A stretch of 64,000 bases of DNA from Actinokineospora enzanensis DSM 44649 (GTDB taxonomy: Bacteria; Actinomycetota; Actinomycetes; Mycobacteriales; Pseudonocardiaceae), in contig NZ_KB894410.1 in assembly GCF_000374445.1 (NCBI RefSeq), positions 62,001 to 126,000 of the forward strand, given 5' to 3'. This document shows positions 19,119-33,112 of the stretch, one piece after another (within the stretch, counting starts at the first letter, position 1; each line of letters opens with the position of its first letter). The translations under genes and the position numbers were made by a program. The notes beneath the pieces are model-generated. The model ran no database searches and was not told the DNA's origin. It was given only the letters and a program-made list of their open reading frames with translations.

Positions 19119-19124
19119 TAGGGT
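19119..19124 (+). promoter_or_regulatory. Leaderless -10 element of MoxR gene
   Basis: TAGGGT followed by seven nucleotides and ATG 19132. This favours ATG 19132 over the in-frame GTG at 19123. Confidence 0.6.
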
Positions 19125-19131
19125 GACCCTC

Positions 19132-19983
19132 ATGCCCCAGTCCACCCCGGCAGGCCCGGACGAGCTGGCGCTGGCCCTCGACCGGGTCGGGTACCTGGCC
19201 GACGAGGGGCTGGCGACGGCCGCGTTCCTCGCCGCGCGGCTGGGACGGCCGCTGTTCTGCGAGGGCGAACCGGGCACCGGCAAGACCGCGCTGGCGACGG
19301 CGCTGGCCGAGGCGCTGGGCGTCGACCTGGTCCGGTTGCAGTGCCACGAGGGGATCGACGCCACCCAGGCGCTGTACGACTGGGACTTCCCGCGCCAGCT
19401 GCTGCATCTGCGCGCCGGTGGCGAGGATTCCCTATACACGCGGCGGTTCCTGCTCGCGCGGCCGTTGCTGCGTGCGCTGGAGGAGGCGCCGTGCGTGCTG
19501 CTGGTCGACGAGATCGATCGGGCGGACGACGAGTTCGAGGCGTTTCTGCTGGAAGTGCTGAGCGAGAACGCGGTCACCATCCCCGAGCTGGGGGTTGTGC
19601 GGGCCGCGGTGCCGCCGCTCGTGGTGCTGACGTCCAACCGGACGCGCGAGGTGCACGACGCGTTGAAGCGCAGGTGCCTTTACCACTGGCTGGACCACCC
19701 GTCGCTGGAGCGTGAGCTCGCCATCCTACGGCGTCGCGTACCCGGTGTGGGTGAGCGGTTGGCCGAACAGGTGACGGTGGCCGTGCGCAGGCTGCGCGCG
19801 GCGGAGTTGTTGAAACCACCCGGTGTCGCGGAGACGATCGACTGGGCGAGCGCGTTGTTGGCGTTGGGGCGTACGGAATTGGACGCGCGCACGGCGGCGG
19901 TGACACTGGGTGCGGTGTTGAAGTACCGGGAAGACGCCGACCGGGTGATCGCGGCGGGACTGGACGCGTTGATCGCGGGTTGA
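19132..19983 (+). CDS. MoxR-type AAA ATPase of a Mo-hydroxylase locus (CoxD-like)
   Basis: A 283-residue AAA ATPase with Walker A GEPGTGKTAL, Walker B VLLVDEIDRADDEFEAFLLE and sensor TSNRT. MoxR/CoxD proteins work with a VWA protein (CoxE) in maturing the active site of molybdenum hydroxylases. The expected CoxE partner is not adjacent but 6.2 kb away at 26173, beyond the NRPS cassette. The role is therefore inferred from family plus the nearby cox-like genes. Confidence 0.9.
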   Translation: MPQSTPAGPDELALALDRVGYLADEGLATAAFLAARLGRPLFCEGEPGTGKTALATALAEALGVDLVRLQCHEGIDATQALYDWDFPRQLLHLRAGGEDSLYTRRFLLARPLLRALEEAPCVLLVDEIDRADDEFEAFLLEVLSENAVTIPELGVVRAAVPPLVVLTSNRTREVHDALKRRCLYHWLDHPSLERELAILRRRVPGVGERLAEQVTVAVRRLRAAELLKPPGVAETIDWASALLALGRTELDARTAAVTLGAVLKYREDADRVIAAGLDALIAG

Positions 19984-20154
19984 CCTGTTCCGCAACTGGT
20001 TTTTGTTGCGGCGGTGGGAAAATCGTTCGCGTGTGGGTCGGGTCCGGCGCATCATGGGAGTGGGAAAACCGAACAAGCCGGAGTTCGCCGCCTCGGGTGG
20101 CGAGTGGTCCGGCACCGCGGGGCGTTGTGGCGGCGCCCCGCACCGCCGATCATG

Positions 20155-20167
20155 GTCCACTGTGGAC
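20155..20167. repeat. Copy of iterated palindrome GTCCACWGTGGAC
   Basis: GTCCACTGTGGAC, here extended to a 15-base perfect dyad (20154-20168), in the intergenic region downstream of the MoxR gene. Confidence 0.7.
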
Positions 20168-20204
20168 CACTTCGGTCTTCCCCCGGTGTGGTAGTCGTTT
20201 CCGT

Positions 20205-20247
20205 GACTCCCCGCGCCCGGCGACCGCCGTGTGCGCGGCGGGGAGTC
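20205..20247. terminator. Hairpin between convergent genes
   Basis: GACTCCCCGC pairs with GCGGGGAGTC across a 23-nt loop. One of two adjacent hairpins at this convergent junction. Confidence 0.55.
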
Positions 20248-20255
20248 CGTCCGGT

Positions 20256-20279
20256 GCGGGGCCGCTTGACCGGCCCCGC
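20256..20279 (-). terminator. Terminator after M1 aminopeptidase
   Basis: GCGGGGCCG / CGGCCCCGC stem with a six-base loop, eight bases beyond the aminopeptidase stop. Confidence 0.7.
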
Positions 20280-20287
20280 GTCGGACG

Positions 20288-21649
20288 TCAGCGCTGGGAC
20301 GCGGGCAGTCGCGGTAACGCCGGGTTGTGCAACCAGGCGGAGAACAGCTCGGTCAGCGGCCACGGGGTGTGCCGCTGCGCCAGGGTGACGAACTCGTCCG
20401 TGGTGACCGTGCCGTGCCGGTGCGCCGAGGTCCACACGTGCAACAGCGCGAAGAACGCCTCGTCGCCGATGCGCAGCCGCAGCGCGTGCAGGGTCACCGC
20501 GCCGCGCAGGTAGACGCGGTCGTCGAACATGCCGCGCACGCCCGGGTCGGCCAGCCGCAGGTTCTGCGGCCGGGCCGCCAGCTCCTGCCAGGCGCGGCGG
20601 GCGTGCGCGTCGGCCGGTTCGCCGCCGGACGCGGCCGACCAGAGCCATTCCGCGTAGGTGGCGAACCCCTCGTTGAGCCAGATGTGCCGCCACTCGGCCA
20701 CCGTGAGGCTGTTGCCGAACCACTGGTGCGCCAGCTCGTGCGCCACCAGCCGCTCGCTGCCGCGCCTGCCGTCCACGTGGTTGCTGCCGAACACCGACAG
20801 CGACTGCGCCTCGATCGGCGCGTCCAGCTCGGCGTCCACCACCACGACCCCGTACTGCTCGAACGGGTACGGGCCGAACAGCCGCTCGAACTCGATCAGC
20901 ATCTGCGGCTGCCGACCGAAGTCGTGCGCGAACCGGCTCATCAGCCGGGCGGGCACGGCCGCGTGCATCATCGGCACGGTGCCGAACGAGGACTCCGCGT
21001 ACCGTCCTATCTGGACGCTGACGAGGTAGGTCGGGGTCGGCTGGGAGAGCCGGAAGTCCCAGGTGGTCGTGCTGGCCGCGGACTGCTTCGCGTCCAGCAC
21101 CCCGGTCACCACCACCTGGTACGGCGAGGCCGTGGTGACCGCGATCCGGTAGGTGGCCTTGTCACTGGGGTGGTCGTTGCACGGGAACCAGGACGGCGCG
21201 CCGATCGGCTGGCTGGCCACGATCACGCCGTCGTCCAGGTAGTCCCAGCCGATCTCGCCCCAGTGGCTGCTCACCGGCGCGGGCGAGCCGGTGTAGCGGA
21301 CCTCCACGGTGAACCGGCCGCCGTCCGGCAGCGGCCGCGGCGGGGTGATCACCAGCTTGCCGCCGCGCTGGGCGTACCGCACGGCCTTGCCGTTCACCGT
21401 CACCTTGGTCGCCCGCAGCCCGGCGAAGTCCAGGCTGAACCGGGACAGCGCCTGGGTGACCGCCGCGGTGATCCGGGCGCGACCGTCCAGCCTGCCCGGA
21501 CCCACCCGGTAGGTCAGGTCGAGATCGTAGTGCGCGACCCGGTACCCGCCGTTGCCGTGGCCGGGCAGGTACGGGTCGGACGAGGTGCTCGCGCCGGGCT
21601 GCCCGGCGCGAGCCGGATCAGCCTTGGCGCTCACCGGCCCATTCAACAT
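20288..21649 (-). CDS. M1-family zinc aminopeptidase, NRPS partner
   Basis: A 453-residue M1 metallopeptidase: N-terminal beta domain, then the catalytic domain with HELAH (His304, Glu305, His308) and the third ligand Glu327 in WLNEGFATYAEW. The substrate-binding GAMEN motif is replaced by IEAQS, as in many actinobacterial M1 enzymes. No clear signal peptide. It begins 17 bp after the NRPS stop, so the two form one transcript. Zinc aminopeptidases have been reported to degrade epsilon-poly-lysine in its Streptomyces producer; a similar trimming or self-degradation role is inference. Confidence 0.92.
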   Translation of the reverse strand: MLNGPVSAKADPARAGQPGASTSSDPYLPGHGNGGYRVAHYDLDLTYRVGPGRLDGRARITAAVTQALSRFSLDFAGLRATKVTVNGKAVRYAQRGGKLVITPPRPLPDGGRFTVEVRYTGSPAPVSSHWGEIGWDYLDDGVIVASQPIGAPSWFPCNDHPSDKATYRIAVTTASPYQVVVTGVLDAKQSAASTTTWDFRLSQPTPTYLVSVQIGRYAESSFGTVPMMHAAVPARLMSRFAHDFGRQPQMLIEFERLFGPYPFEQYGVVVVDAELDAPIEAQSLSVFGSNHVDGRRGSERLVAHELAHQWFGNSLTVAEWRHIWLNEGFATYAEWLWSAASGGEPADAHARRAWQELAARPQNLRLADPGVRGMFDDRVYLRGAVTLHALRLRIGDEAFFALLHVWTSAHRHGTVTTDEFVTLAQRHTPWPLTELFSAWLHNPALPRLPASQR

Positions 21650-21666
21650 GACGACCCGGCTCCCGG

Positions 21667-24600
21667 TCAGCCCTCGCCCGGCCAGGCCGAGATCGGGTTG
21701 CCCAGCCAGCGGGTGCCGTCCGGGACGGACTCGCCGCGCATGACCAGCGAGGCCGGGCCGACCGTGGTGCGCGCGCCGACGGCCGCGCCGGGCAGCACGA
21801 TGCCGTGCGGGCCGAGCGTGCCGCCCGCGCCGACGGTCACCGGGGCCATCCGCATGATCCGGTCGTGGAACAGGTGGGTCTGCAGTACACAGCCGCGGTT
21901 GACCGTGGCGCCGGGGCCGACCCGGACCAGGTCGGCCTCGGGCAGCCAGTAGGTCTCCACCCAGGCGCCCCGGCCGATCTTCGCGCCGAGCCCGCGCAGC
22001 CAGGTGTTCAGCAGCGGCGAGCCGGTCGCCCACGGCGCGAACCACGGCACGGCCAGCATCTCCACGAAGGTGTCGGCCAGCTCGTTGCGCCAGACGAACG
22101 AGCTCCACAGTGGACGGTCCAGGGTGCGGAGCTGGCCGACCAGGACCCACTTCGCCAGCACCGCCACCACACAGGCCTCGATCCCGGCGCCGAACAGCAC
22201 CACGCCGCCGATGGCCAGACCAAGCCAGAAGCCCGCGTAGGTCAGGCACGCGGCGACCAGCACGGCCAGCGCCACCGAGGCCATCACCGGCACCACCCGG
22301 CACAGCTCGACCAGCGCGCGCGCCACCACCAGCCGCCGCGGCGGGTCGAAGGTGGTGCTCTCGTCCGCGGCGTCGGCCGTGCGCGGCAGCTTCATCGGCG
22401 GCATGCCCAGGTAGGACGACCCCGCCTTCGCCTTCTTCGGCGTCGAGGACAGCACGCCGACGAGCCCGCGCTTGGGTACCGCGCGGCCGGGCGCGGTCAT
22501 CCCGGAGTTGCCCAGGAACGCCCGCTTGCCGACGCGCGCGACGTCGATGCGCAGCCAGCCGCCGCCGAGCTCGTAGGAGCCGACCATGGTGTCGTCGGCC
22601 AGGAACGCGCCGTCGCCGACGGTCGTCATGCTCGGCAGCGCCAGCACCGTGGACGCCTCCACGCGCTTGCCCACCTTCATGCCCAGGGCGCGGAGCCACA
22701 CCGGCGTGAACAGGCTTGCGTAGATGGGGAACAGACCGGAACGGGCCATCTCCATCAACCGCTCAGTGGCCCACGCCTGCCACGCGATCCGGCTGTGCAC
22801 CGCGTGCCTGCCCGGTCGTAGGCCGATCGAGAGCAGACGTACGAGGACCAGGATCAGCAACGCGTAGCTGACCATCCAGGCCAGCGTGATCAGCGGTACC
22901 GCGATCAGGGCCTGCGTCAGGGCGGCGCCGAGGGTGGCCGTGCCCGCCAGGAAGCCCATCAGGATCACCACCGACGGGACCGCCGCCGCGACCGGCAGCA
23001 GGCTCAGCACGAACGACATCGCCGCGTACATGGCGACCCAGCGCCGCTTGCGCGCCGGGCGGCCGCCCTTCTGGTCGGCCTTCCCGGTCCGGCTCGCGGG
23101 CGCCCCGGACCAGCGCTGACCAGCGGGAACCGTGCCGTCGACGCCGGAGCCCGGGCCGATCTCGGCGTGCTTGCCGACGTGCGCGCCGGGGAACAGGGTG
23201 CTGCGCGCGCCGACCGTGGCGTGCGCGTCCACCCGGACCTGGCCGATGTGCAGGACGTCGCCGTCCAACCAGTGGCCGGACAGGTCCACCTCGGGCTCGA
23301 TGGCGGCACCGCGTCCCAGTCGCAGCATGCCCGTCACCGGTGGCAACGAGTGCAGGTCGACGCCATCACCGATGCGCGCGCCGAGAGCCCGCGCGTAGTG
23401 GGTCATCCAGGGTGCACCCTGCAGGCCCGCGGCACCGGTCAGTTCGACCATCCGCTCCGCCGCCCACAGGCGCACGTGGACACTCCCGCCGCGCGGGTAT
23501 GAACCGGGTTCGACGCCTCGCAGCAGCAGACGCGCTGTCACGGCTGCCAGCGTCATCCGGCCCCACGGGCTCAGGAACACCAGCCAGCCCGCGAGCACCA
23601 GCCACCAGGACACCTTGGGCGCCCAGGGCAGGGCCACCAGGTTGTTCAGCGCGGCCAGGGCGACCACCCAGCGGGCACCGACCACGGTGAGCATCGGGAG
23701 CGTCAGCGCGAGCTGCGCGATCCGGCTGCCGCGCGGGGTCGGCCACACCATCCGCTCGCGCTGCGTGCTCGCGGCGGCGGCGTCCACCCGTCGGGCCAGC
23801 TGGCCCAGCGTCGAGTGCTGGTACAGGTCGGCGACCGCGATGCTCGGGTGCCGCTCGCGGATCTTGGAGACCAGCTGCGCGGCGGACAGGCTACTGCCGC
23901 CGTGCGCGAAGAAATCGGCCTTCGGGGTGGCGACGCCGACGCCAAGCAGGTCTCGCCACAGGCCCGCCAGCCAGCGCTCGGTGTCGGTCAGCGCGGCCGC
24001 GTCCACGTCGGCGGTGTCCAGGGCCAACGGCCACGGCAGCGCCGCGCGGTCGACCTTGCCGGAGGTGCGCGTGGGCAGGGTGTCGACGGGGGCGAGCAGG
24101 GGCACCAACGCGGCCGGTAGCTCTGTCCGTAGCCGGTCTACCGCGGCGTCCGCGTCGAACTCCGCGCCCGTCACGACGTACCCGACCAGGAGCTGGTTAC
24201 CGGCGGCGGTAGTGCGCACGGCGGCCGCGGCACCCGCGACCCCGGGCAGCGCCTGCAACGCCGCGTCGACCTCGCCCAGCTCGATGCGCCTGCCGCCGAG
24301 CTTGATCTGCTCGTCGGCGCGGCCCAGGAACAGCAGGCCCGCTGGCTCGGCCTTGACCATGTCGCCGCTGCGGTAGGCGCGGTCCCAGGACAGCGCGGGC
24401 AGCGGCGCGAACTTCTCCGCGTCCTTCACCGGGTCGAGGTAGCGGGCCAAGCCCGCGCCGCCGATCACCAGCTGCCCGGTCTCGCCCATCGGCACCAGCT
24501 CGCCCGCCTCGTCCACCACGGCCAGCTCCCAGCCGTCCAGCGGCAGGCCGATGCGCACCGGGCCGCGCCCGGTCAGCTCGGCGGCACAGGCGACGACGGT

Positions 24601-25539
24601 CGCCTCGGTCGGGCCGTAGGTGTTCCACACCTCGCGGCCGGGCACGGCCAGCCGCTCGGCCAGCTCGGGCGGGCAGGCCTCGCCGCCGAAGATCAGCAGC
24701 CGGACCCGGTCCAGCGCCTCGGCAGGCCACAGCGCGGCCAGCGTCGGCACCGTGGAGACCACCGTGACACCCCGCGCGACCAGCCACGGGCCCAGGTCGA
24801 CGCCGGTGCGCACGAGCGCGCGGGGGGCGGCGACCAGGCAGGCGCCGTAGCGCCAGGCCAGCCACATCTCCTCGCAGGAGGCGTCGAACGCGACCGACAG
24901 CCCGGCCAGCACCCGGTCGTCGGGGGTGATCGGCGCGTCCGGCAGGAACAGCTCGGCCTCGGCGTCCACGAACGCGGCGGCGCTGCGGTGGCCGACCGCC
25001 ACGCCCTTTGGCTTGCCGGTTGAGCCGGAGGTGAAGATGATCCACGCGTCGTCGTCCGGGGTGGGCGTACCCGGGGTGCCGGTCGGGGCGGCCAGCCGGG
25101 TGAGCGCGCGGTGGGCGCCGAGTACGGCGCAAGCGTTTGCCTCGCCGAAGACCAGGGCCGCCCGCTCGTCCGGGTCGTCGAAGTCGACGGGGACGTAGGC
25201 GGCGCCTGCGGCGAGGACGCCGAGGATCGAGACGTAGAGGTCGGCGGTGCCGGACGGCACCCGGATACCCACCCGGTCGCCCCGGCCGACGCCCGCCGCG
25301 GCCAGTTCGGCGCGCAGGTCGTCGACCGCGGTGAGCAGCTCGCGGTAGGTCAGGACGGTCGTGCCGTCGTCGATCGCGCCCGCGTCGGGGTACCGGGCGG
25401 CGGTGGCGGCGAGGACGTCGACAAGGGTGCGGGGCGCGGACTCCGGGCCCGCGCGGAACACGGCCAGGCCGCGCGCGGCGGCGTCGGCCAGTGGGTCGTG
25501 GGAGTCGAGCAGGGACGGCGCGTGATCGGCAATGGTCAT
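21667..25539 (-). CDS. Pls/PosA-type single-module NRPS, homopoly(amino acid) synthetase
   Basis: A 1290-residue membrane NRPS. Adenylation domain (about 35-500) has FTSGSTGKPKG at 169, NTYGPTEAT at 306, YRSGDM at 389 and Lys495 in TSGKVDR. The carrier domain has HGGSSL with Ser550 for the pantetheine arm. Three pairs of membrane helices follow, each followed by a left-handed beta-helix domain. This is the architecture of epsilon-poly-lysine synthetase. The A4 stretch FDASCEEMW places Glu in the pocket, fitting a diamino acid. ATG 25539 starts close to the A domain without a good ribosome-binding site; ATG 25578 is the alternative. Confidence 0.93.
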   Translation of the reverse strand: MTIADHAPSLLDSHDPLADAAARGLAVFRAGPESAPRTLVDVLAATAARYPDAGAIDDGTTVLTYRELLTAVDDLRAELAAAGVGRGDRVGIRVPSGTADLYVSILGVLAAGAAYVPVDFDDPDERAALVFGEANACAVLGAHRALTRLAAPTGTPGTPTPDDDAWIIFTSGSTGKPKGVAVGHRSAAAFVDAEAELFLPDAPITPDDRVLAGLSVAFDASCEEMWLAWRYGACLVAAPRALVRTGVDLGPWLVARGVTVVSTVPTLAALWPAEALDRVRLLIFGGEACPPELAERLAVPGREVWNTYGPTEATVVACAAELTGRGPVRIGLPLDGWELAVVDEAGELVPMGETGQLVIGGAGLARYLDPVKDAEKFAPLPALSWDRAYRSGDMVKAEPAGLLFLGRADEQIKLGGRRIELGEVDAALQALPGVAGAAAAVRTTAAGNQLLVGYVVTGAEFDADAAVDRLRTELPAALVPLLAPVDTLPTRTSGKVDRAALPWPLALDTADVDAAALTDTERWLAGLWRDLLGVGVATPKADFFAHGGSSLSAAQLVSKIRERHPSIAVADLYQHSTLGQLARRVDAAAASTQRERMVWPTPRGSRIAQLALTLPMLTVVGARWVVALAALNNLVALPWAPKVSWWLVLAGWLVFLSPWGRMTLAAVTARLLLRGVEPGSYPRGGSVHVRLWAAERMVELTGAAGLQGAPWMTHYARALGARIGDGVDLHSLPPVTGMLRLGRGAAIEPEVDLSGHWLDGDVLHIGQVRVDAHATVGARSTLFPGAHVGKHAEIGPGSGVDGTVPAGQRWSGAPASRTGKADQKGGRPARKRRWVAMYAAMSFVLSLLPVAAAVPSVVILMGFLAGTATLGAALTQALIAVPLITLAWMVSYALLILVLVRLLSIGLRPGRHAVHSRIAWQAWATERLMEMARSGLFPIYASLFTPVWLRALGMKVGKRVEASTVLALPSMTTVGDGAFLADDTMVGSYELGGGWLRIDVARVGKRAFLGNSGMTAPGRAVPKRGLVGVLSSTPKKAKAGSSYLGMPPMKLPRTADAADESTTFDPPRRLVVARALVELCRVVPVMASVALAVLVAACLTYAGFWLGLAIGGVVLFGAGIEACVVAVLAKWVLVGQLRTLDRPLWSSFVWRNELADTFVEMLAVPWFAPWATGSPLLNTWLRGLGAKIGRGAWVETYWLPEADLVRVGPGATVNRGCVLQTHLFHDRIMRMAPVTVGAGGTLGPHGIVLPGAAVGARTTVGPASLVMRGESVPDGTRWLGNPISAWPGEG
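22103..22115. repeat. Copy of iterated palindrome (core TCCACAGTGGA)
   Basis: CTCCACAGTGGAC within the NRPS gene. On the coding strand it reads through a rare CCA proline codon. Confidence 0.6.
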
Positions 25540-25733
25540 CGCGACGAACGCATTTCTCACCTTTTCCGGTGGGGTCATCGGCCGGGGAGCCGGCCGAGCG
25601 GCAGCGCGCGGACGCTTCCGGAGCGAGCACGTTACCGGCCTTGTTATCGGCTTGTCGCGTCCGACCATTACTTCAGTGTCCTGGTTCACACGTGTGGGTT
25701 GCTTGTGCCGCAACAGTTTTGCTATCGGTCTCC

Positions 25734-25752
25734 GATATCGAGATCCGATATC
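25734..25752. promoter_or_regulatory. PadR operator candidate, distal copy
   Basis: GATATCGAGATCCGATATC: seven-base arms GATATCG/CGATATC around five bases, in the 290-bp gap between the divergent NRPS and PadR genes. Confidence 0.7.
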
Positions 25753-25802
25753 AATCACGCCTGCCGCTTGTGTACTGCCTAAATGGCAGCTACTCGTTGG
25801 CC

Positions 25803-25821
25803 GATATCGACATGCGATATC
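25803..25821. promoter_or_regulatory. PadR operator candidate, proximal copy
   Basis: GATATCGACATGCGATATC: the same arms and spacing as the copy 69 bp upstream. It ends eight bases before the PadR ATG, a position that would allow autorepression. Confidence 0.7.
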
Positions 25822-25829
25822 GTGGAGCG

Positions 25830-26129
25830 ATGGACGTGGTCCGTGAGTTCGCCAACGGCGCGCTGCGCCTCCGGGTGCTGCGCTACGCCGCCGAGGAGGA
25901 GGTACACGGTGCCTGGCTGACCGAGGAGCTGGCTGGTCGCGGGCACCGCGTGTCGCCCGGGACGCTCTATCCGCTGCTGCACCGCCTACAGGAGGCGGGT
26001 CTGCTCAAGTCGCGTACGGAGGTGGTCGACGGCAGGCGCGTACGGCGCTACCGGACGACCAAGCGCGGCAAGCGCGTGCTCTCCGACTGCCGTGCGGTGC
26101 TCGCGGAACTGGCCGAGGACATGGCGTAG
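25830..26129 (+). CDS. PadR-family transcriptional regulator
   Basis: A 99-residue winged-helix protein of the short PadR type (GAWLTEELAGRGHRVSPGTL, then YPLLHRLQEAGLL and a wing with VDGRRVRRYRTTKRGKRVL). GGAG lies directly before ATG 25830. Longer upstream frames run through the operator region and are not credible. Two identical-type dyads flank its promoter. It is divergent from the NRPS and probably represses it and itself. The ligand is unknown. Confidence 0.93.
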   Translation: MDVVREFANGALRLRVLRYAAEEEVHGAWLTEELAGRGHRVSPGTLYPLLHRLQEAGLLKSRTEVVDGRRVRRYRTTKRGKRVLSDCRAVLAELAEDMA

Positions 26130-26172
26130 TCCGCCCCTGCGGCACCGGGCTGTCCTGCGCAACACTGCAACG

Positions 26173-27264
26173 GTGGACCCATTGCCCGGTCTGGTCGGTT
26201 TCGCCGCCGCACTCCGTGCGGCTGGTGTTGCGTGCGGTCCTCAGCGCGTGCAGACCTACCTGGACGCGCTGGAGCTGATGGACCTAGCCGACCTCGACCA
26301 GGTCTACTGGGCCGGCAGGGTCACCCTCTGTTCCGAGCTGGACGACCTGCCCAAGTACGACGCCGCCTTCCAGGCATGGTTCACCGGGGTCACGCCACGT
26401 GCCGCACAACCACGCCTGGGCCACCAGCCCAAACGCGCTCATCTCGCCGCGCTCGCGGCAAGCGCAGGCTCCGGCGCGGAGAGCAACAGTCCGCACGTCG
26501 AGCGCAGGGCCAGCGACGCCGAGGTGCTGCGCCATCGCGACATCGCCGAGCTGACCGCCGCCGAGCGCGCCCACCTGCGCGAGATGATCGCTCTGCTCCG
26601 TCCTGAGCCGCCCCAGCGCGCCGCCCTCCGCTGGCGGCCGGACCGGCGCGGCCGCGTCGACGACCGCCGGACCGTTCGGATCATGCGTGCCTGCGGCGGC
26701 GAGCCTGCCCGGCTCGCCCGCAAGCGCCGCCGCACCCGGCCCCGGCGGGTCGTGCTGCTGATCGATGTCTCCGGCTCGATGTCCCCCTACGCCGACGCCC
26801 TGCTCCGCTTCGGGCACGCGATGGCCCACCGCTCGCCAACCGAGGTGTTCACCCTCGGTACCCGTCTCACCCGCCTGACCAGGCAACTCGGCCAGCGGGA
26901 CGCTGAGCTCGCGCTCGCCGCGGCCGCGCGGGCCGTCCCCGATTTCGCGGGCGGCACTCGGCTGGGCGAGACCCTGCGCGCGTTCCTGGACCGCTGGGGG
27001 CAGCGCGGTGTGGCCCGGCAGGCGGTGGTGGTGCTGTTCTCCGACGGTTGGGAACGCGGCGATGTGAGCCTGCTCGGCGCGCAGATGGCCCGCCTGGGCA
27101 GGCTCGCGCACCGGGTGTTCTGGGTGAACCCGCACGCGGGCTCGCCGGTGTACGAGCCGGTCCAGTCCGGTATCGCGGTTGCCTTGCCGCACGTCGACCG
27201 ATTGCTCGCCGGGCACAGCGTGGCGACACTTGATCATCTTCTACGGGAGGTGCGCCGTGCGTGA
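26173..27264 (+). CDS. VWA-domain protein, CoxE-like
   Basis: A 363-residue protein with an N-terminal helical region and a C-terminal von Willebrand A domain carrying the metal-ion site DVSGSMS at residue 198. CoxE proteins act with a MoxR/CoxD ATPase on apo Mo-hydroxylase. GTG 26173 was chosen because upstream residues overlap the PadR gene end and look non-coding. It overlaps xdhC by eight bases. Its ATPase partner (19132) is separated from it by the NRPS cassette. Confidence 0.9.
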   Translation: MDPLPGLVGFAAALRAAGVACGPQRVQTYLDALELMDLADLDQVYWAGRVTLCSELDDLPKYDAAFQAWFTGVTPRAAQPRLGHQPKRAHLAALAASAGSGAESNSPHVERRASDAEVLRHRDIAELTAAERAHLREMIALLRPEPPQRAALRWRPDRRGRVDDRRTVRIMRACGGEPARLARKRRRTRPRRVVLLIDVSGSMSPYADALLRFGHAMAHRSPTEVFTLGTRLTRLTRQLGQRDAELALAAAARAVPDFAGGTRLGETLRAFLDRWGQRGVARQAVVVLFSDGWERGDVSLLGAQMARLGRLAHRVFWVNPHAGSPVYEPVQSGIAVALPHVDRLLAGHSVATLDHLLREVRRA

Positions 27265-28369
27265 CGTGCTGGACGAGGTCCTACGCCACTACGAAGCGGG
27301 AGAGGCGGTCGCGGTCGGCACCGTGGTCGCCACCTTCTCGTCCGCGCCGCGCGCGCCGGGCGCGGCCATGGTCGTCACCGCGGATGGAACGGTCGCGGGC
27401 AGTGTGTCCGGTGGTTGCGTGGAGGGCGCGGTCTACGAGCTGGGCCGCGAGGTGCTCGACACCGGACGGCCCGTGCTGGAGCGCTACGGCGTCAGTGACG
27501 ACGACGCGTTAGCGGTCGGCCTCACCTGCGGCGGCATCATCGACGTCTACGTCGAGCGGATCGACCGCGCCACCTTCCCCGGTTTCGCGGACCTGGTCGC
27601 GGCAGTGCGCGCGGAACTGCCGGTCGCGTTGGCGACGGTCATCGCCCACCCGAATCCGACCCGCTTGGGCACCCGGATCGTGGTGTGGCCGGACCGCGCG
27701 TCGGGCACCACCGGCTCGGCCCGGATCGACGACGCGGTGATCGACGACGCCCGCGGCCTGCTCGCCTCGGGCCGCACCGCCGCGGTCGGTTACGGACCGG
27801 ACGGCGAGCGGCGGGGCGAGGGCATGACGGTGTTCGTCAGCTCCTTCGAGCCGCCGCCCCGGCTGTTGGTCTTCGGTGCCATCGACTTCGCCGCCGCCAT
27901 GGCGCGCATGGGCGCCTACCTGGGCTACCGCGTCACGGTGTGCGACGCGCGCCCGGTCTTCGCCACCGCCAGCCGGTTCCCGAGCGCGCACGAGGTCGTC
28001 GTCGACTGGCCGCACCGCTACCTGGGCGCGGAGCTGGCCGCGGGCCGGGTGGACGAGCGCACGGTGGTGACCGTGCTGACCCACGACCCCAAGTTCGACG
28101 TGCCGGTGCTGGCCGTGGCGCTGCGCGGGAAGCTCGGCTACGTGGGCGCTATGGGCTCCCGGCGCACGCACGAGGACCGGATCGCCCGGCTCCGCGAGGC
28201 CGGGCTGGACGACGGCGAGCTGGCCGTGCTGGCCTCGCCGATCGGCCTGGACCTGGGGGCCCGCACCCCGGAGGAGACCGCGGTGTCGATCGCCGCGGAG
28301 ATCATCGCGTCCCGCTGGGGCGGCCGCGGGCAACCTCTCTCGGTCCTCTCCGGTCGTATTCACCATTAG
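27257..28369 (+). CDS. XdhC/CoxF-family Mo-hydroxylase maturation factor
   Basis: A 370-residue protein with an N-terminal XdhC domain (GSVSGGCVEGAVYELGREVL) and a C-terminal Rossmann-type domain (LLVFGAIDFAAAMARMG, GYVGAMGSRRTHEDR). XdhC binds and sulfurates molybdenum cofactor and hands it to the hydroxylase. GTG 27257 follows GGGAGG by about five bases and overlaps the VWA gene. The structural subunits begin 151 bp downstream. Confidence 0.93.
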   Translation: MRDVLDEVLRHYEAGEAVAVGTVVATFSSAPRAPGAAMVVTADGTVAGSVSGGCVEGAVYELGREVLDTGRPVLERYGVSDDDALAVGLTCGGIIDVYVERIDRATFPGFADLVAAVRAELPVALATVIAHPNPTRLGTRIVVWPDRASGTTGSARIDDAVIDDARGLLASGRTAAVGYGPDGERRGEGMTVFVSSFEPPPRLLVFGAIDFAAAMARMGAYLGYRVTVCDARPVFATASRFPSAHEVVVDWPHRYLGAELAAGRVDERTVVTVLTHDPKFDVPVLAVALRGKLGYVGAMGSRRTHEDRIARLREAGLDDGELAVLASPIGLDLGARTPEETAVSIAAEIIASRWGGRGQPLSVLSGRIHH

Positions 28370-28383
28370 GTCCCGTGGACGAG

Positions 28384-28412
28384 TTGTCCACAGGGCCGTC
28401 GAGCTGTCCACA
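28384..28412 (+). other. Pair of DnaA-box-like nonamers
   Basis: TTGTCCACA (28384-28392) and CTGTCCACA (28404-28412) form direct repeats with a 20-bp period between xdhC and the 2Fe-2S subunit gene. They match the actinomycete DnaA consensus but could be a regulator site. Confidence 0.35.
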
Positions 28413-28520
28413 GGCCCCGGTGGCGGGCTTGTCGGATGGGCTGAACGGGGGCAGGCTGCGTTGTGAGCCCGATCACGCGCCACGGGCCGGGACGCCGCCG
28501 CTCATCCCCAGGAGGCACAG

Positions 28521-29045
28521 ATGCGCATCACCGTCACCGTCGACGGGACCACCTACACCGACGAGGTCGAACCGCGACAGCTGCTCGTGTACTACCTGCG
28601 CGAGACGCTGGGCAAGACCGGCACCGTCGTGGGATGCGACACCAGCAACTGCGGCGCGTGCACGATCCACCTCGACGGTCACAGCGTGAAGTCCTGCTCG
28701 GTGCTCGCGGTGCAGGCCGACGGCGCCGAGGTCACCACCATCGAGGGCCTGGCCAGGGACGGCGAGCTGCACCCGGTGCAGCGGGCCTTCCACGACAACC
28801 ACGCGCTGCAGTGCGGCTTCTGCACCCCGGGGATGATCATGCAGACGCTCGACCTGCTGGCCGACGACCCGGACCCGGACGAGCACGCGGTGCGGCACGG
28901 CCTGGAGGGCAACCTCTGCCGCTGCACCGGCTACCAGAACATCGTGCGCGCCGTCCGGGACGCCGCCGACCGGATGCGCCCCGGCGCGGGCCCGGCCGCC
29001 GAGCGGCTCGCGGACGACTCCCGCCAGATGGTCGGGGGCGAGTGA
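28521..29045 (+). CDS. Mo-hydroxylase small subunit, 2Fe-2S (CoxS-like)
   Basis: A 174-residue iron-sulfur subunit with the plant-type cluster [10 protein letters not shown] plus a fourth Cys (SVKSC) and the second cluster in CGFCTPGM and [10 protein letters not shown]. It passes electrons from the molybdenum site to the FAD subunit. AGGAGG precedes ATG 28521 well. Its stop overlaps the large-subunit ATG (TGATG). Confidence 0.96.
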
Positions 29046-31474
29046 TGACCGCGACGGTCGAGCCCGAGGTCGGCCGGGCGCGTACCCGCAAGGAGGACGC
29101 GCGGCTGATCACCGGTCGTACCCGGTGGACCGACAACATCACCCTGCCCGGCCTGCTGCACCTGGTGTTCGTGCGCAGCCCGGCCGCGCACGCCAAGATC
29201 ACCGCCATCGACACGGACGAGGCCCGCCGGATGCCCGGGGTGATCGCGGTGTTCACCGGCCGGGACCTGGCCGACGTGCAGGGCAGCCTGCCGTGCGCCT
29301 GGCCGATCACCCCGGACATGAAGGCACCGCCCGCGCCGCCGCTGGCCGTCGACCAGGTCAACTTCGCGGGCGAGGCGGTCGCCGTTGTGGTCGCGCGCAG
29401 CCGGGCGGAGGCGGTCGACGCGGTGGCCGCCATCGACATCGACTACGACGACCTGCCGGTGGTGCTCGACCTGGCCGCCGCGGCCGCCGACAGCGACCTC
29501 GTGCACCCCGACCTGGGCACCAACCGGTCCGCCACCTGGGTGTTCGACTCGGCCGACGCGGGCACCGGCGGCGATGTCGCGGCCGCCATCGCCGATGCCG
29601 AGGTGCTCATCGAGCGCACCTATCGGCAGCAGCGGCTCATCCCCGCGTTCATGGAGCCGCGCTCGGTGGTGGTCGACCCCACCGGCGAGCAGCTGACCAT
29701 GTGGTCGGCCACCCAGGTCCCGCACATCCTGCGGCTCATGCTGGCGCTGACCACCGGCACCCCGGAGCACAAGATCCGGGTGATCGCCCCGGACGTGGGC
29801 GGCGGCTTCGGCGGCAAGCTCCAGGTGACGCCGGAGGAGGTACTGGCCATGGTCATCGCCCAGCGCCTGGGCAAACCGGTGAAGTGGACCGAGACCCGAT
29901 CGGAGTCGCTGGTGTCCGCGCACCACGGCCGTGACCAGATCCAGAAGCTCACCCTGGCGGCCCGCCGCGATGGCACCGTCACCGGCCTCAAGGTCGAGCT
30001 GCTCGCCGACATGGGCGCGTACCTGCGGCTGGTCACCCCGGGCGTGCCGATCCTGGGCGCGTTCATGTTCAACGCCATTTACAAGTTCCCCGCCTACCAC
30101 TTCTCCTGCACCAACGTGTTCACCACCAAGACCCCGACCGACGCCTACCGGGGCGCGGGCCGCCCGGAGGCCACGTTCGCCATCGAGCGCCTGATGGACG
30201 AGCTGGCCGCCGAGCTGGGCCGCGACCCGATCGAGGTGCGCGCGCAGAACTGGATCCGGCACGACGAGTTCCCGTTCACCACCGTGTGCGGGCTGGAGTA
30301 CGACACCGGCAACTACGAGGCGGCCACCGCGCGCGCCAAGGAACTGTTCGACTACGACGGCCTGCGCGCCGAACAACGCGAACGCCGCGAACGCGGTGAC
30401 GTGGTCCAGCTCGGCATCGGCACGTCCACCTTCACCGAGATGTGCGGCCTCGCCCCGTCCCGCGTGCTCGGCTCGCTGTCCTATGGCGCGGGCGGCTGGG
30501 AGCACGCGGCGATCCGGATGCTGCCCAGCGGCAAGGTCGAGGTGGTCACCGGCTCGTCCGCGCACGGGCAGGGCCACGAGACGGCGTGGAGTCAGATCGT
30601 CGCCGACCAGCTCGGGGTGCCGTTCGAGGACATCGAGGTCCTGCACGGGGACACCCAGTCCTCGCCCAAGGGCCTGGACACCTACGGTTCGCGCTCGCTG
30701 ACCGTCGGCGCGATGGCGGTGCTCAAGGCGGGCGAGAAGGTGATCGCCAAGGCCCGCCGGGTGGCCGCGCACCAGCTGGAGTGCGCGGAGGGCGACCTGG
30801 AGTTCGCGGGCGGGCGGTTCACCGTGCGGGGCACCGAGAAGTCGACCGGCATCACCGACGTCGCCCTCGCCGTGTTCGCCGCGCACGACCTGCCCGACGG
30901 TGTCGAGCCATCGCTGGACTCCGAGGCCACCTTCGACCCGGAGAACTTCTCCTTCCCGCACGGCACCCACCTGTGCGCGGTCGAGGTGGACACCGAGACC
31001 GGGTTCGTCAAGATCCGCAAGTACGCGTGCGTCGACGACGTCGGCACCGTCGTCAACCCGCTGATCGTGGACGGCCAGGTGCACGGCGGTCTGGCCCAGG
31101 GCCTCGCCCAGGCACTCTACGAGGAGGCCGTGCACGACGAGAGCGGCACGCTCACCACCGGCACCCTGGCCGACTACCTGGTGCCCTCGGCGGTCGACCT
31201 GCCGCATTTCGACACCGACCGCACGGTCACCCCGTCGACCACCAACCAGCTGGGCGCCAAGGGGGTCGGCGAGGCGGGCACCATCGCGTCCACCCCGGCG
31301 GTGGTCAACGCGGTCGTCGACGCGGTGCGCCACCTCGGCGTCACCGACGTGCCGATGCCGTGCACCCCGATGCGGGTCTGGGCGGCGATCAACCACCGCT
31401 CCGCCGACTCCGGCCTCGGCACCGAGGCGGGTGGCGGGCTCGGTTCCCTCGACACCTCCGGAGGTGCGGTGTGA
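29045..31474 (+). CDS. Mo-hydroxylase large subunit, form II CoxL-like
   Basis: An 809-residue molybdopterin-cytosine-dinucleotide subunit of the aerobic CO dehydrogenase family. The active-site loop reads AYRGAGR at residues 367-373, the form II signature, instead of AYXCSFR of true (form I) CO dehydrogenases. The nucleophilic cysteine is therefore absent and the substrate is uncertain. The QxxHG-type stretch SSAHGQGHET and GVGEAG near the C-terminus are intact. The start overlaps the small-subunit stop and the end overlaps the medium-subunit start (GTGA). Confidence 0.95.
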   Translation: MTATVEPEVGRARTRKEDARLITGRTRWTDNITLPGLLHLVFVRSPAAHAKITAIDTDEARRMPGVIAVFTGRDLADVQGSLPCAWPITPDMKAPPAPPLAVDQVNFAGEAVAVVVARSRAEAVDAVAAIDIDYDDLPVVLDLAAAAADSDLVHPDLGTNRSATWVFDSADAGTGGDVAAAIADAEVLIERTYRQQRLIPAFMEPRSVVVDPTGEQLTMWSATQVPHILRLMLALTTGTPEHKIRVIAPDVGGGFGGKLQVTPEEVLAMVIAQRLGKPVKWTETRSESLVSAHHGRDQIQKLTLAARRDGTVTGLKVELLADMGAYLRLVTPGVPILGAFMFNAIYKFPAYHFSCTNVFTTKTPTDAYRGAGRPEATFAIERLMDELAAELGRDPIEVRAQNWIRHDEFPFTTVCGLEYDTGNYEAATARAKELFDYDGLRAEQRERRERGDVVQLGIGTSTFTEMCGLAPSRVLGSLSYGAGGWEHAAIRMLPSGKVEVVTGSSAHGQGHETAWSQIVADQLGVPFEDIEVLHGDTQSSPKGLDTYGSRSLTVGAMAVLKAGEKVIAKARRVAAHQLECAEGDLEFAGGRFTVRGTEKSTGITDVALAVFAAHDLPDGVEPSLDSEATFDPENFSFPHGTHLCAVEVDTETGFVKIRKYACVDDVGTVVNPLIVDGQVHGGLAQGLAQALYEEAVHDESGTLTTGTLADYLVPSAVDLPHFDTDRTVTPSTTNQLGAKGVGEAGTIASTPAVVNAVVDAVRHLGVTDVPMPCTPMRVWAAINHRSADSGLGTEAGGGLGSLDTSGGAV

Positions 31475-32325
31475 TCCCCACGGCATTCGACTACCTCGCA
31501 CCGTCCACAGTGGACGACGCGGTCCGGGTGCTGGCCGACGCAGGCGAGGACGCGAAGGTCATCGCGGGCGGGCAGAGCCTGGTCCCGGTACTGCGGATGC
31601 GGCTGGCCGCGCCGACCACGCTGGTCGACCTGGGTCGGATCGCCGAGCTGCGCGGCATCCGCGACGACGGCGACGCGCTGGTCATCGGGGCCATGACCAC
31701 CCACCACGACGTGCGCCGCGACCCGCTGGTGGCCACCCACACGGCGTTGCTGCGCGCGGCCACCGACACCGTCGCCGACCCGCAGGTCCGGCACCGCGGC
31801 ACCTTCGGTGGTGCGCTCGCGCACGCCGACCCCGCAGGCGACCTGCTCGCCCCCGCGCTCGCGCTGGAGGCGGAGATGGTGGTGTGCGGGATGGACGGTC
31901 GCCGCGCGGTGGCCGCCCGCGACTTCTTCGTCGACTACTTCACCACCGCGCTGCGCCCCGACGAGATCCTGGTCGAGGTCCGGGTGCCCAAGCACACTGG
32001 CTGGGGCGCGCACTACGAGAAGTTCAGCCGGGTCGCCCAGGCCTGGTCGATCGTCGCGGTGGCGGCCGCCGTGCAAGCCGAGGACGGTGTGATCACGCAG
32101 GCACGGGTGGGGCTGACCAACATGTCGTCGGTCCCGGTCCGCGCGCACGCGGTGGAGGACGCCCTGGTCGGGCGCCCGGCCACGGTCGAGTCGATCAGGG
32201 CGGCGGCCGAGCTGGCCGCCGAGGGCACCCGCCCGGCCGGGGACGGCAACGCCGACGTCGCCTACCGGCAGCACCTGGCGCGCGTGCTCACCACGCGCGC
32301 CCTGGTCACCGCCGTCGGCGCCTAG
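31471..32325 (+). CDS. Mo-hydroxylase medium subunit, FAD-binding (CoxM-like)
   Basis: A 284-residue FAD subunit with AGGQSLVPVLRMRL near residue 30 and RHRGTFGGALAHADPAGD near residue 105, both typical flavin-contact motifs. GTG 31471 overlaps the large-subunit stop. Subunit order S-L-M differs from the M-S-L order of classical coxMSL and is common in form II loci. A copy of the 13-bp palindrome lies near the start of the gene. Confidence 0.95.
   Translation: MIPTAFDYLAPSTVDDAVRVLADAGEDAKVIAGGQSLVPVLRMRLAAPTTLVDLGRIAELRGIRDDGDALVIGAMTTHHDVRRDPLVATHTALLRAATDTVADPQVRHRGTFGGALAHADPAGDLLAPALALEAEMVVCGMDGRRAVAARDFFVDYFTTALRPDEILVEVRVPKHTGWGAHYEKFSRVAQAWSIVAVAAAVQAEDGVITQARVGLTNMSSVPVRAHAVEDALVGRPATVESIRAAAELAAEGTRPAGDGNADVAYRQHLARVLTTRALVTAVGA
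31503..31515. repeat. Copy of iterated palindrome GTCCACAGTGGAC
   Basis: Perfect 13-base copy in codons 11-15 of the FAD subunit gene; it imposes a rare ACA threonine codon. Confidence 0.7.
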
Positions 32326-32338
32326 GAGGGGAGTGGAC

Positions 32339-33112
32339 GTGCGGTTGGAGCACCGGTTCACCGTCCCGGCGGACCTCGACACCGTCTGGGCGGCCGTGCT
32401 CGACCCCGAGCGCGTGGCGCCGTGCCTGCCCGGCGCCGCGCTCACCGGGGTCGCAGGCACGGCTTTCTCGGGCACGGTCAAGGTCAAGCTCGGGCCGATC
32501 TCGTTGCTGTACAAGGGTTCCGGCGAGTTCCTGGAGCGAGACGCGGACGCCCGTCGGATCGTGATCAAGGCGTCCGGAAAGGACTCCAGAGGTAACGGCA
32601 CCGCCAACGCCACGGTGACCGTCACGCTGAGCGCCGATGGCGACACCACCGTGGGCCGGGTCGACACCGATCTGGCGATCACCGGGAAGCCCGCCCAGTT
32701 CGGCCGCGGCCTCATCGCCGAGGTCGGCGGCAAGATCCTCGACGCGTTCGCGGCCAACCTGGCCGAGGCGCTCACGACTCCCGCGGCGTCGGTCGACGCC
32801 GCGGCCGGACCGGAACCGTCCGAACCGGAGCCCGCGGAGTCGGTGGCGGCGCCACCGCCCGACACCGAGGGTAACGAGCAGACGGACCGGGACGTACCGG
32901 AAACCCGGGAGGCAACGGAAACCCGAGATCCCCAGGACGCCGAGTCCGCTCCGGAATCGGAGACGGCCACACCGCGCCCACTGCGCGCGGTGTCGGAGGC
33001 CGAGCCCATCGACCTGATGGAGCTGGCCGGGAAGTCCACGGCCAAACGGCTGCTGCCGATCCTGGTGGTGGCCCTGGTGATCGCGTTGGTCATCGCCCGC
33101 CGACGCCGCTAG
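32339..33112 (+). CDS. CoxG-like SRPBCC protein with C-terminal membrane anchor
   Basis: A 257-residue protein: SRPBCC/CoxG domain (about 1-145), an acidic Pro/Glu-rich linker (about 150-220) and a C-terminal membrane helix (LLPILVVALVIALVI) followed by RRRR. CoxG proteins tether the hydroxylase to the membrane and couple it to quinone, which fits this layout. AGGAGG lies nine bases before GTG 32339; GTG 32333 is too close. The 17 bases around this start are identical to those at the prs-like start 970 bp away. Confidence 0.9.
   Translation: MRLEHRFTVPADLDTVWAAVLDPERVAPCLPGAALTGVAGTAFSGTVKVKLGPISLLYKGSGEFLERDADARRIVIKASGKDSRGNGTANATVTVTLSADGDTTVGRVDTDLAITGKPAQFGRGLIAEVGGKILDAFAANLAEALTTPAASVDAAAGPEPSEPEPAESVAAPPPDTEGNEQTDRDVPETREATETRDPQDAESAPESETATPRPLRAVSEAEPIDLMELAGKSTAKRLLPILVVALVIALVIARRRR

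Follow-up and report, generated by a model that had tools for sequence, protein, structure and literature searches.

In a 64,000-nucleotide stretch of the Actinokineospora enzanensis DSM 44649 genome (hereafter the window, to which all coordinates refer), we find what we consider, with a probability of about 85%, to be an epsilon-poly-L-lysine system with its own PadR switch, as judged from sequence comparisons. It comprises pls, a gene for an epsilon-polylysine-type synthetase (P0001; 21667-25539, minus strand, profile and structure matches), an M1 metallo-aminopeptidase gene in PldII-like position (P0002; 20288-21649, minus strand), and padR, divergent from pls and encoding a 99-residue PadR regulator (25830-26129, plus strand), with conserved dyads between the last gene and pls. 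The gene set very probably makes the antimicrobial polymer epsilon-polylysine, and would in this be a known kind of system. A preliminary description of this DNA had placed the three genes at these positions and reported a single adenylation-thiolation (A-T) module, a carrier serine at residue 550 and a 17-bp gap before the peptidase gene, all of which our analysis bears out.

A synthetase predicted to use L-lysine

P0001 carries an adenylation (A) domain at residues 69-526 (24037-25410, Pfam and motif anchors) and a carrier domain at residues 547-610 (23785-23976, Pfam), both on the minus strand. AMP-binding and PP-binding matched above the Pfam cut-offs, AMP-binding_C and Hexapep weakly and below them, and no condensation or thioesterase domain was found (Pfam, nothing else at E 0.001), which is the single-module organisation of Pls. 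Residues 633-1308 (21691-23718, minus strand) matched TIGR02353 with 760.5 bits. The AlphaFold2 model of this region, together with modest fold matches, shows six membrane helices and three acetyltransferase-like beta-helix domains, as expected for the C-terminal part of Pls and PosA; the proposal of three membrane-helix pairs, each with its beta-helix, is supported by all three lines. The fold comparison was a VIA second look; a family missing from it could still be a match. The start of pls is best put at the ATG at 25539, because Met26-Thr27 of P0001 are nearly invariant; the carrier serine is therefore Ser550.

When the A domain was compared with PDB entries, the S. albulus epsilon-polylysine synthase (7wew) stood out with 683 bits, while other single-stretch matches reached at most 241 bits and the delta-poly-L-ornithine synthetase PosA (8g95) 204. 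The pocket, with positions set by motif anchors and numbered as we take them to be, reads DAESIGTVVK, and its ten residues are identical to those read off 7wew. Position 2 is Ala, as in lysine-type pockets, instead of the Met of PosA (DMEHNGTVSK) or the Phe of the poly-diaminopropionate (PDAP) and poly-diaminobutyrate (PDAB) synthetases. The monomer, initially proposed to be some diamino acid, thus narrows to L-lysine by the identity with 7wew and by Ala as against Met (ornithine) and Phe; and since the A domain is by far nearest to 7wew and has the same pocket, the predicted product is epsilon-poly-L-lysine. The phylogenetic check suggested with the initial proposal was run in part: in a tree of A-T regions the window sequence groups with lysine-pocket sequences, apart from paralogues with DFE-type pockets, and this tree holds no biochemically characterised enzyme. 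The 'Gre' synthetase named there for comparison was not identified. In the mechanism that we propose, L-lysine activated by the A domain would be bound to the carrier domain as a thioester, and the beta-helix part in the membrane would link lysines through the epsilon-amino group and release the chain.

The same genome encodes, outside the window, a second full-length synthetase of the Pls/PosA type (G000:C1:587690-591649, loci L026/L054), about 33-36% identical. Its pocket, DFECLSCVSK, has Phe at position 2, as in diaminobutyrate (Dab) and diaminopropionate (Dap) synthetases, and no Dab aminotransferase was seen in the six adjoining open reading frames (ORFs) scanned. Such a paralogue occurs, among the matches listed, in at least 7 of the 16 genomes of the genus that we compared for the cassette, PadR, dyads and leader ORF.

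The aminopeptidase gene behind pls

P0002 (453 residues; Pfam, motif and neighbourhood) is encoded 17 bp downstream of pls. An alignment of 17 sequences (14 from the genus) shows no variation in its HELAH motif and downstream Glu, the HEXXH + Glu signature of a PldII-type enzyme. Pls is closely followed by an M1 homologue, encoded on the same strand, in 16/16 genomes of the genus and at 79 of the 80 named Pls loci, which were retrieved with two patterns. The sole miss among these lysine-pocket loci, L131 (Kitasatospora sp. GP82), had no M1 homologue in its flanks. Excerpts of the literature, the form in which the papers cited by PMC number were available, report a pls-peptidase operon in Streptomyces and Corynebacterium (PMC8117764) and describe PldII as giving self-protection and sitting outside the membrane (PMC9223678). 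By its gene order and motifs, the pair of synthetase and peptidase is the known pls-pldII pair, and the dedicated polymer turnover that had been predicted gains support from this arrangement: by analogy with PldII, the M1 enzyme would degrade the polymer and so shield the producer.

A divergent padR gene and its putative operator

The start of padR is placed at 25830 because the N-terminus MDVVREF begins there and its M-D-V is invariant in 16/16 genomes. The protein belongs to the PadR family (PF03551 winged helix, 61.8 bits against a gathering threshold of 27). A profile built from the 16 PadR proteins of the genus recovered padR in all 15 relatives searched, and the PadR-Pls-M1 set is kept in 16/16 genomes. 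With this profile (E 1e-3, up to 4 kb from Pls or as far as the contig allows), no PadR was found at any of the 80 named loci, which are also the basis for our statement on other genera of the family; one weaker match (L078, E 0.0014) lies more than 5 kb from Pls.

Pattern scans revealed three exact copies of the dyad TATCG-N5-CGATA, and no others in the window. Two overlap (25723-25737 and 25736-25750) and form O1 (25723-25750); the third, O2 (25805-25819), lies just upstream of padR, and a copy with one mismatch (25818-25832) spans the padR ATG. In 16/16 genomes of the genus, dyads with at most one mismatch occur at about -24 and about -92 from padR (-93 and -80 in L053), often arranged between pls and padR as a 13-bp tandem series of GATATC. 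Altogether, 56 sites were counted over the 16 loci, against a shuffled mean of 0.085. The longer, 19-base form GATATC-N6-CGATATC is present in 15 of the 16 whole genomes and, among the matches listed, always at the cassette; the sixteenth genome (G008) has a one-base variant there. Another pattern tried, CGATATCG-N6-CGATATC, gave one unrelated match in 16 genomes and was dropped for GATATC-N6-CGATATC, which fits instead. A weak terminator-like site is found at 25698-25714 on the plus strand (one against 0.3 expected).

PadR relatives that are not linked to pls carry the same dyad. At E 1e-22, PadR was found in 14 of 200 genomes of the family, of which ten belong to the genus and four do not (L179, L180, L181 and L182; 48-57% identical over the match). 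None of these four has an adjoining Pls, although one genome has a Pls of 38% identity on another contig. In 4/4 the PadR match has an exact dyad ahead of it, 14 to 456 bp away; such a dyad occurs in 1 of 4000 shuffled loci and nowhere in 114 kb of VWA loci. The 1.66 Mb of named Pls loci contain a single exact dyad, at position 8674 of L104 (Streptomyces avidinii), some 327 bp upstream of Pls. Next to the unlinked relatives we noted a DoxX protein in one case and an arginase-family match in another.

As the dyads are conserved between pls and padR and are exact upstream of all four unlinked relatives, this PadR subfamily very likely reads TATCG-N5-CGATA. Since O2 and its one-mismatch neighbour extend to the padR start codon, PadR may control its own gene. 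The PadR switch, putative so far, has thus acquired a candidate operator set conserved throughout the genus. Repression is the usual mode of PadR regulators, and we propose that PadR would bind O1 and O2, repressing pls-M1 and padR, until some signal releases it.

A short reading frame in front of pls

Inspection of the sequence upstream of pls revealed a possible leader ORF, MRSSR (25536-25553, minus strand), whose TGA overlaps the pls ATG (ATGA). In 15/16 genomes of the genus, a ribosome-binding-like sequence and an ATG are followed by an ORF of 5 codons (12 genomes) or 9 codons (3 genomes), its TGA overlapping the pls ATG; that of L042 was taken from the printed sequence. The exception is G006, in which the leader is absent. 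Among the 80 named loci, 9 have a leader ORF before pls at a limit of 20 codons, and 14 at a limit of 60 codons, compared with 2 to 6 in 20 shuffles. Most of the 14 are unalike, and a leader ORF as a general pls feature was therefore rejected. The layout of a ribosome-binding-like sequence plus ATGCG recurs among them only in L055, L060, L062 and L065, and we confine the leader to the genus because most of those in the named loci differ from one another.

The same bases could instead belong to a longer Pls starting at the GTG at 25560, a reading that we take seriously without preferring it: the residues K-V-R-N-A are conserved in most sequences of the genus and the frame is open there. However, the codon is GTA in L050, the GTG sits within the ribosome-binding-like sequence, and 15/16 genomes retain the ATG, the 5- or 9-codon length and the overlap with the start of pls, all of which speaks for a separate leader ORF.

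A possible insertion between cox-type genes

The cassette splits a CODH-like (carbon monoxide dehydrogenase-like) molybdenum hydroxylase cluster (19123-33112). On the left flank lies a coxD-like gene for a MoxR-type AAA ATPase (19123-19983, plus strand, profile match). On the right flank, a coxE-like gene for a VWA_CoxE protein (26173-27264, plus strand, profile match; its start is uncertain, GTG 26173 or 26092, the latter overlapping padR) is followed by genes for XdhC, the CODH-like small, large and medium subunits, and CoxG. The large subunit scores 687 bits, below the CODH cut-off of 991. The cassette lies between MoxR and VWA in 11/16 genomes of the genus, XdhC alone is found in 4/16 (one on a 9.8-kb contig), and no flanking cox gene was matched in the fetched stretch of G006. 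A VWA locus match was obtained in 59 of 80 genomes searched. Of the best 30 loci, two belong to the genus; in the 28 from other genomes of the family, VWA directly follows MoxR in 21 (13-139 nt apart), lies 889 nt away in 1, and is not found within 1.5 kb in 6. The flanks of the 80 named Pls loci contain no cox-type genes. The simplest reading of these gene orders is an entry of the cassette between coxD and coxE in the genus, with loss of cox genes in some lineages.

If coxE starts at 26173, it lies some 43 nt behind padR, with which it may share a transcript. This co-directional arrangement, and the presence of XdhC downstream of padR in 15/16 genomes, would also suit a PadR governing mainly itself and the cox-type genes, its place beside pls being incidental. 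We consider this improbable, as padR is beside pls in 16/16 genomes, including G006 with no cox gene matched in the fetched stretch, and as O1, which faces pls, keeps its position.

Discussion

Several points weigh against an epsilon-polylysine system under PadR control. The pocket comparison with 7wew relies on motif anchors, and one of the two patterns that retrieved the 80 named loci spans part of the pocket. P0002 has no obvious signal sequence, whereas PldII is described as outside the membrane (PMC9223678). PadR scores 121.6 bits, under the 140-bit NCBIfam cut-off for the Rv3488 equivalog NF053635. That PadR represses, and does not activate, is an assumption drawn from what PadR proteins generally do. 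Finally, the pls ATG is 184-211 bp downstream of O1, and a scan found no consensus sigma-70-type promoter at either end of the cassette, so that the action of O1 on pls is putative. As to the product, pocket codes predict substrates imperfectly, with degeneracy that makes PDAP, PDAB and beta-lysine synthetases hard to distinguish (PMC10522769), but that the enzyme makes poly-ornithine, poly-Dab, poly-Dap or poly-beta-lysine is very unlikely in view of Ala at position 2 with complete identity to the 7wew pocket, the gap between 683 bits and the 204 of PosA, the clade separate from DFE-type paralogues, and the peptidase neighbour, in the PMC8117764 excerpts a trait of Pls and not of the other three synthetases.

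The closest known counterparts are the pls-pldII operon of Streptomyces albulus and the pls-peptidase operon of Corynebacterium variabile, which share the synthetase architecture, the lysine pocket and the peptidase directly behind pls. Our locus differs from them in its 17-bp gap, where pls and pldII overlap by 4 bp in S. albulus (PMC4361855), and in its conserved dyads and divergent padR, a gene seen beside none of the 80 named loci; the lack of an obvious signal sequence likewise sets the present M1 protein apart from pls-pldII systems. PosA of Acinetobacter baumannii resembles our Pls in its A-T module, six membrane helices and three beta-helices, as modelled in its paper, but has Met at position 2 and, in the part of that paper available, is described as a single-gene operon without a peptidase. 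The regulator matches profile NF053635 and structures (5zhc and others), like short PadR regulators of the Rv3488 type, from which its sub-cut-off score, its linkage to pls and its TATCG-N5-CGATA sites distinguish it.

The enzyme pair is thus already known, and the new part is PadR with its dyads beside pls. In the available parts of the open PMC literature, subscription literature not being covered, we found neither a regulator gene, PadR or other, next to pls nor a PadR operator of this kind. PMC4361855 (2015) called the regulation of epsilon-polylysine unknown; the sigma factor HrdD and the global regulator AdpA of S. albulus have been named since. They too control epsilon-polylysine synthesis but, in the excerpts at hand, differ from the present PadR in that the latter is encoded beside pls. 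Falling expression of PadR genes is mentioned in two transcriptome papers on S. albulus, whose available passages do not place these genes beside pls.

We tentatively extend this to a genus-wide, pathway-specific switch, in which a PadR of the TATCG-N5-CGATA subfamily would have been recruited to pls-pldII, its 19-base site occurring nowhere else in nearly all genomes of the genus. The two-sided operator might couple polylysine to the CODH-like hydroxylase operon, and the five-codon leader MRxx[R/K] might add stop-start translational control.

A strong Pls match was found in 14 of 296 genomes across the phylum, against 16/16 genomes of the genus keeping the set, which points to a lasting role of the set in this lineage. 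Epsilon-polylysine itself is used industrially to preserve food. If our reading is true, a regulator beside pls with a defined operator would open a direct way to the signal that naturally sets off polymer synthesis, and to pls genes that lie silent. The dyad, supported by PadR genes linked to pls and by unlinked ones, would also aid the search for targets of other short PadR regulators.

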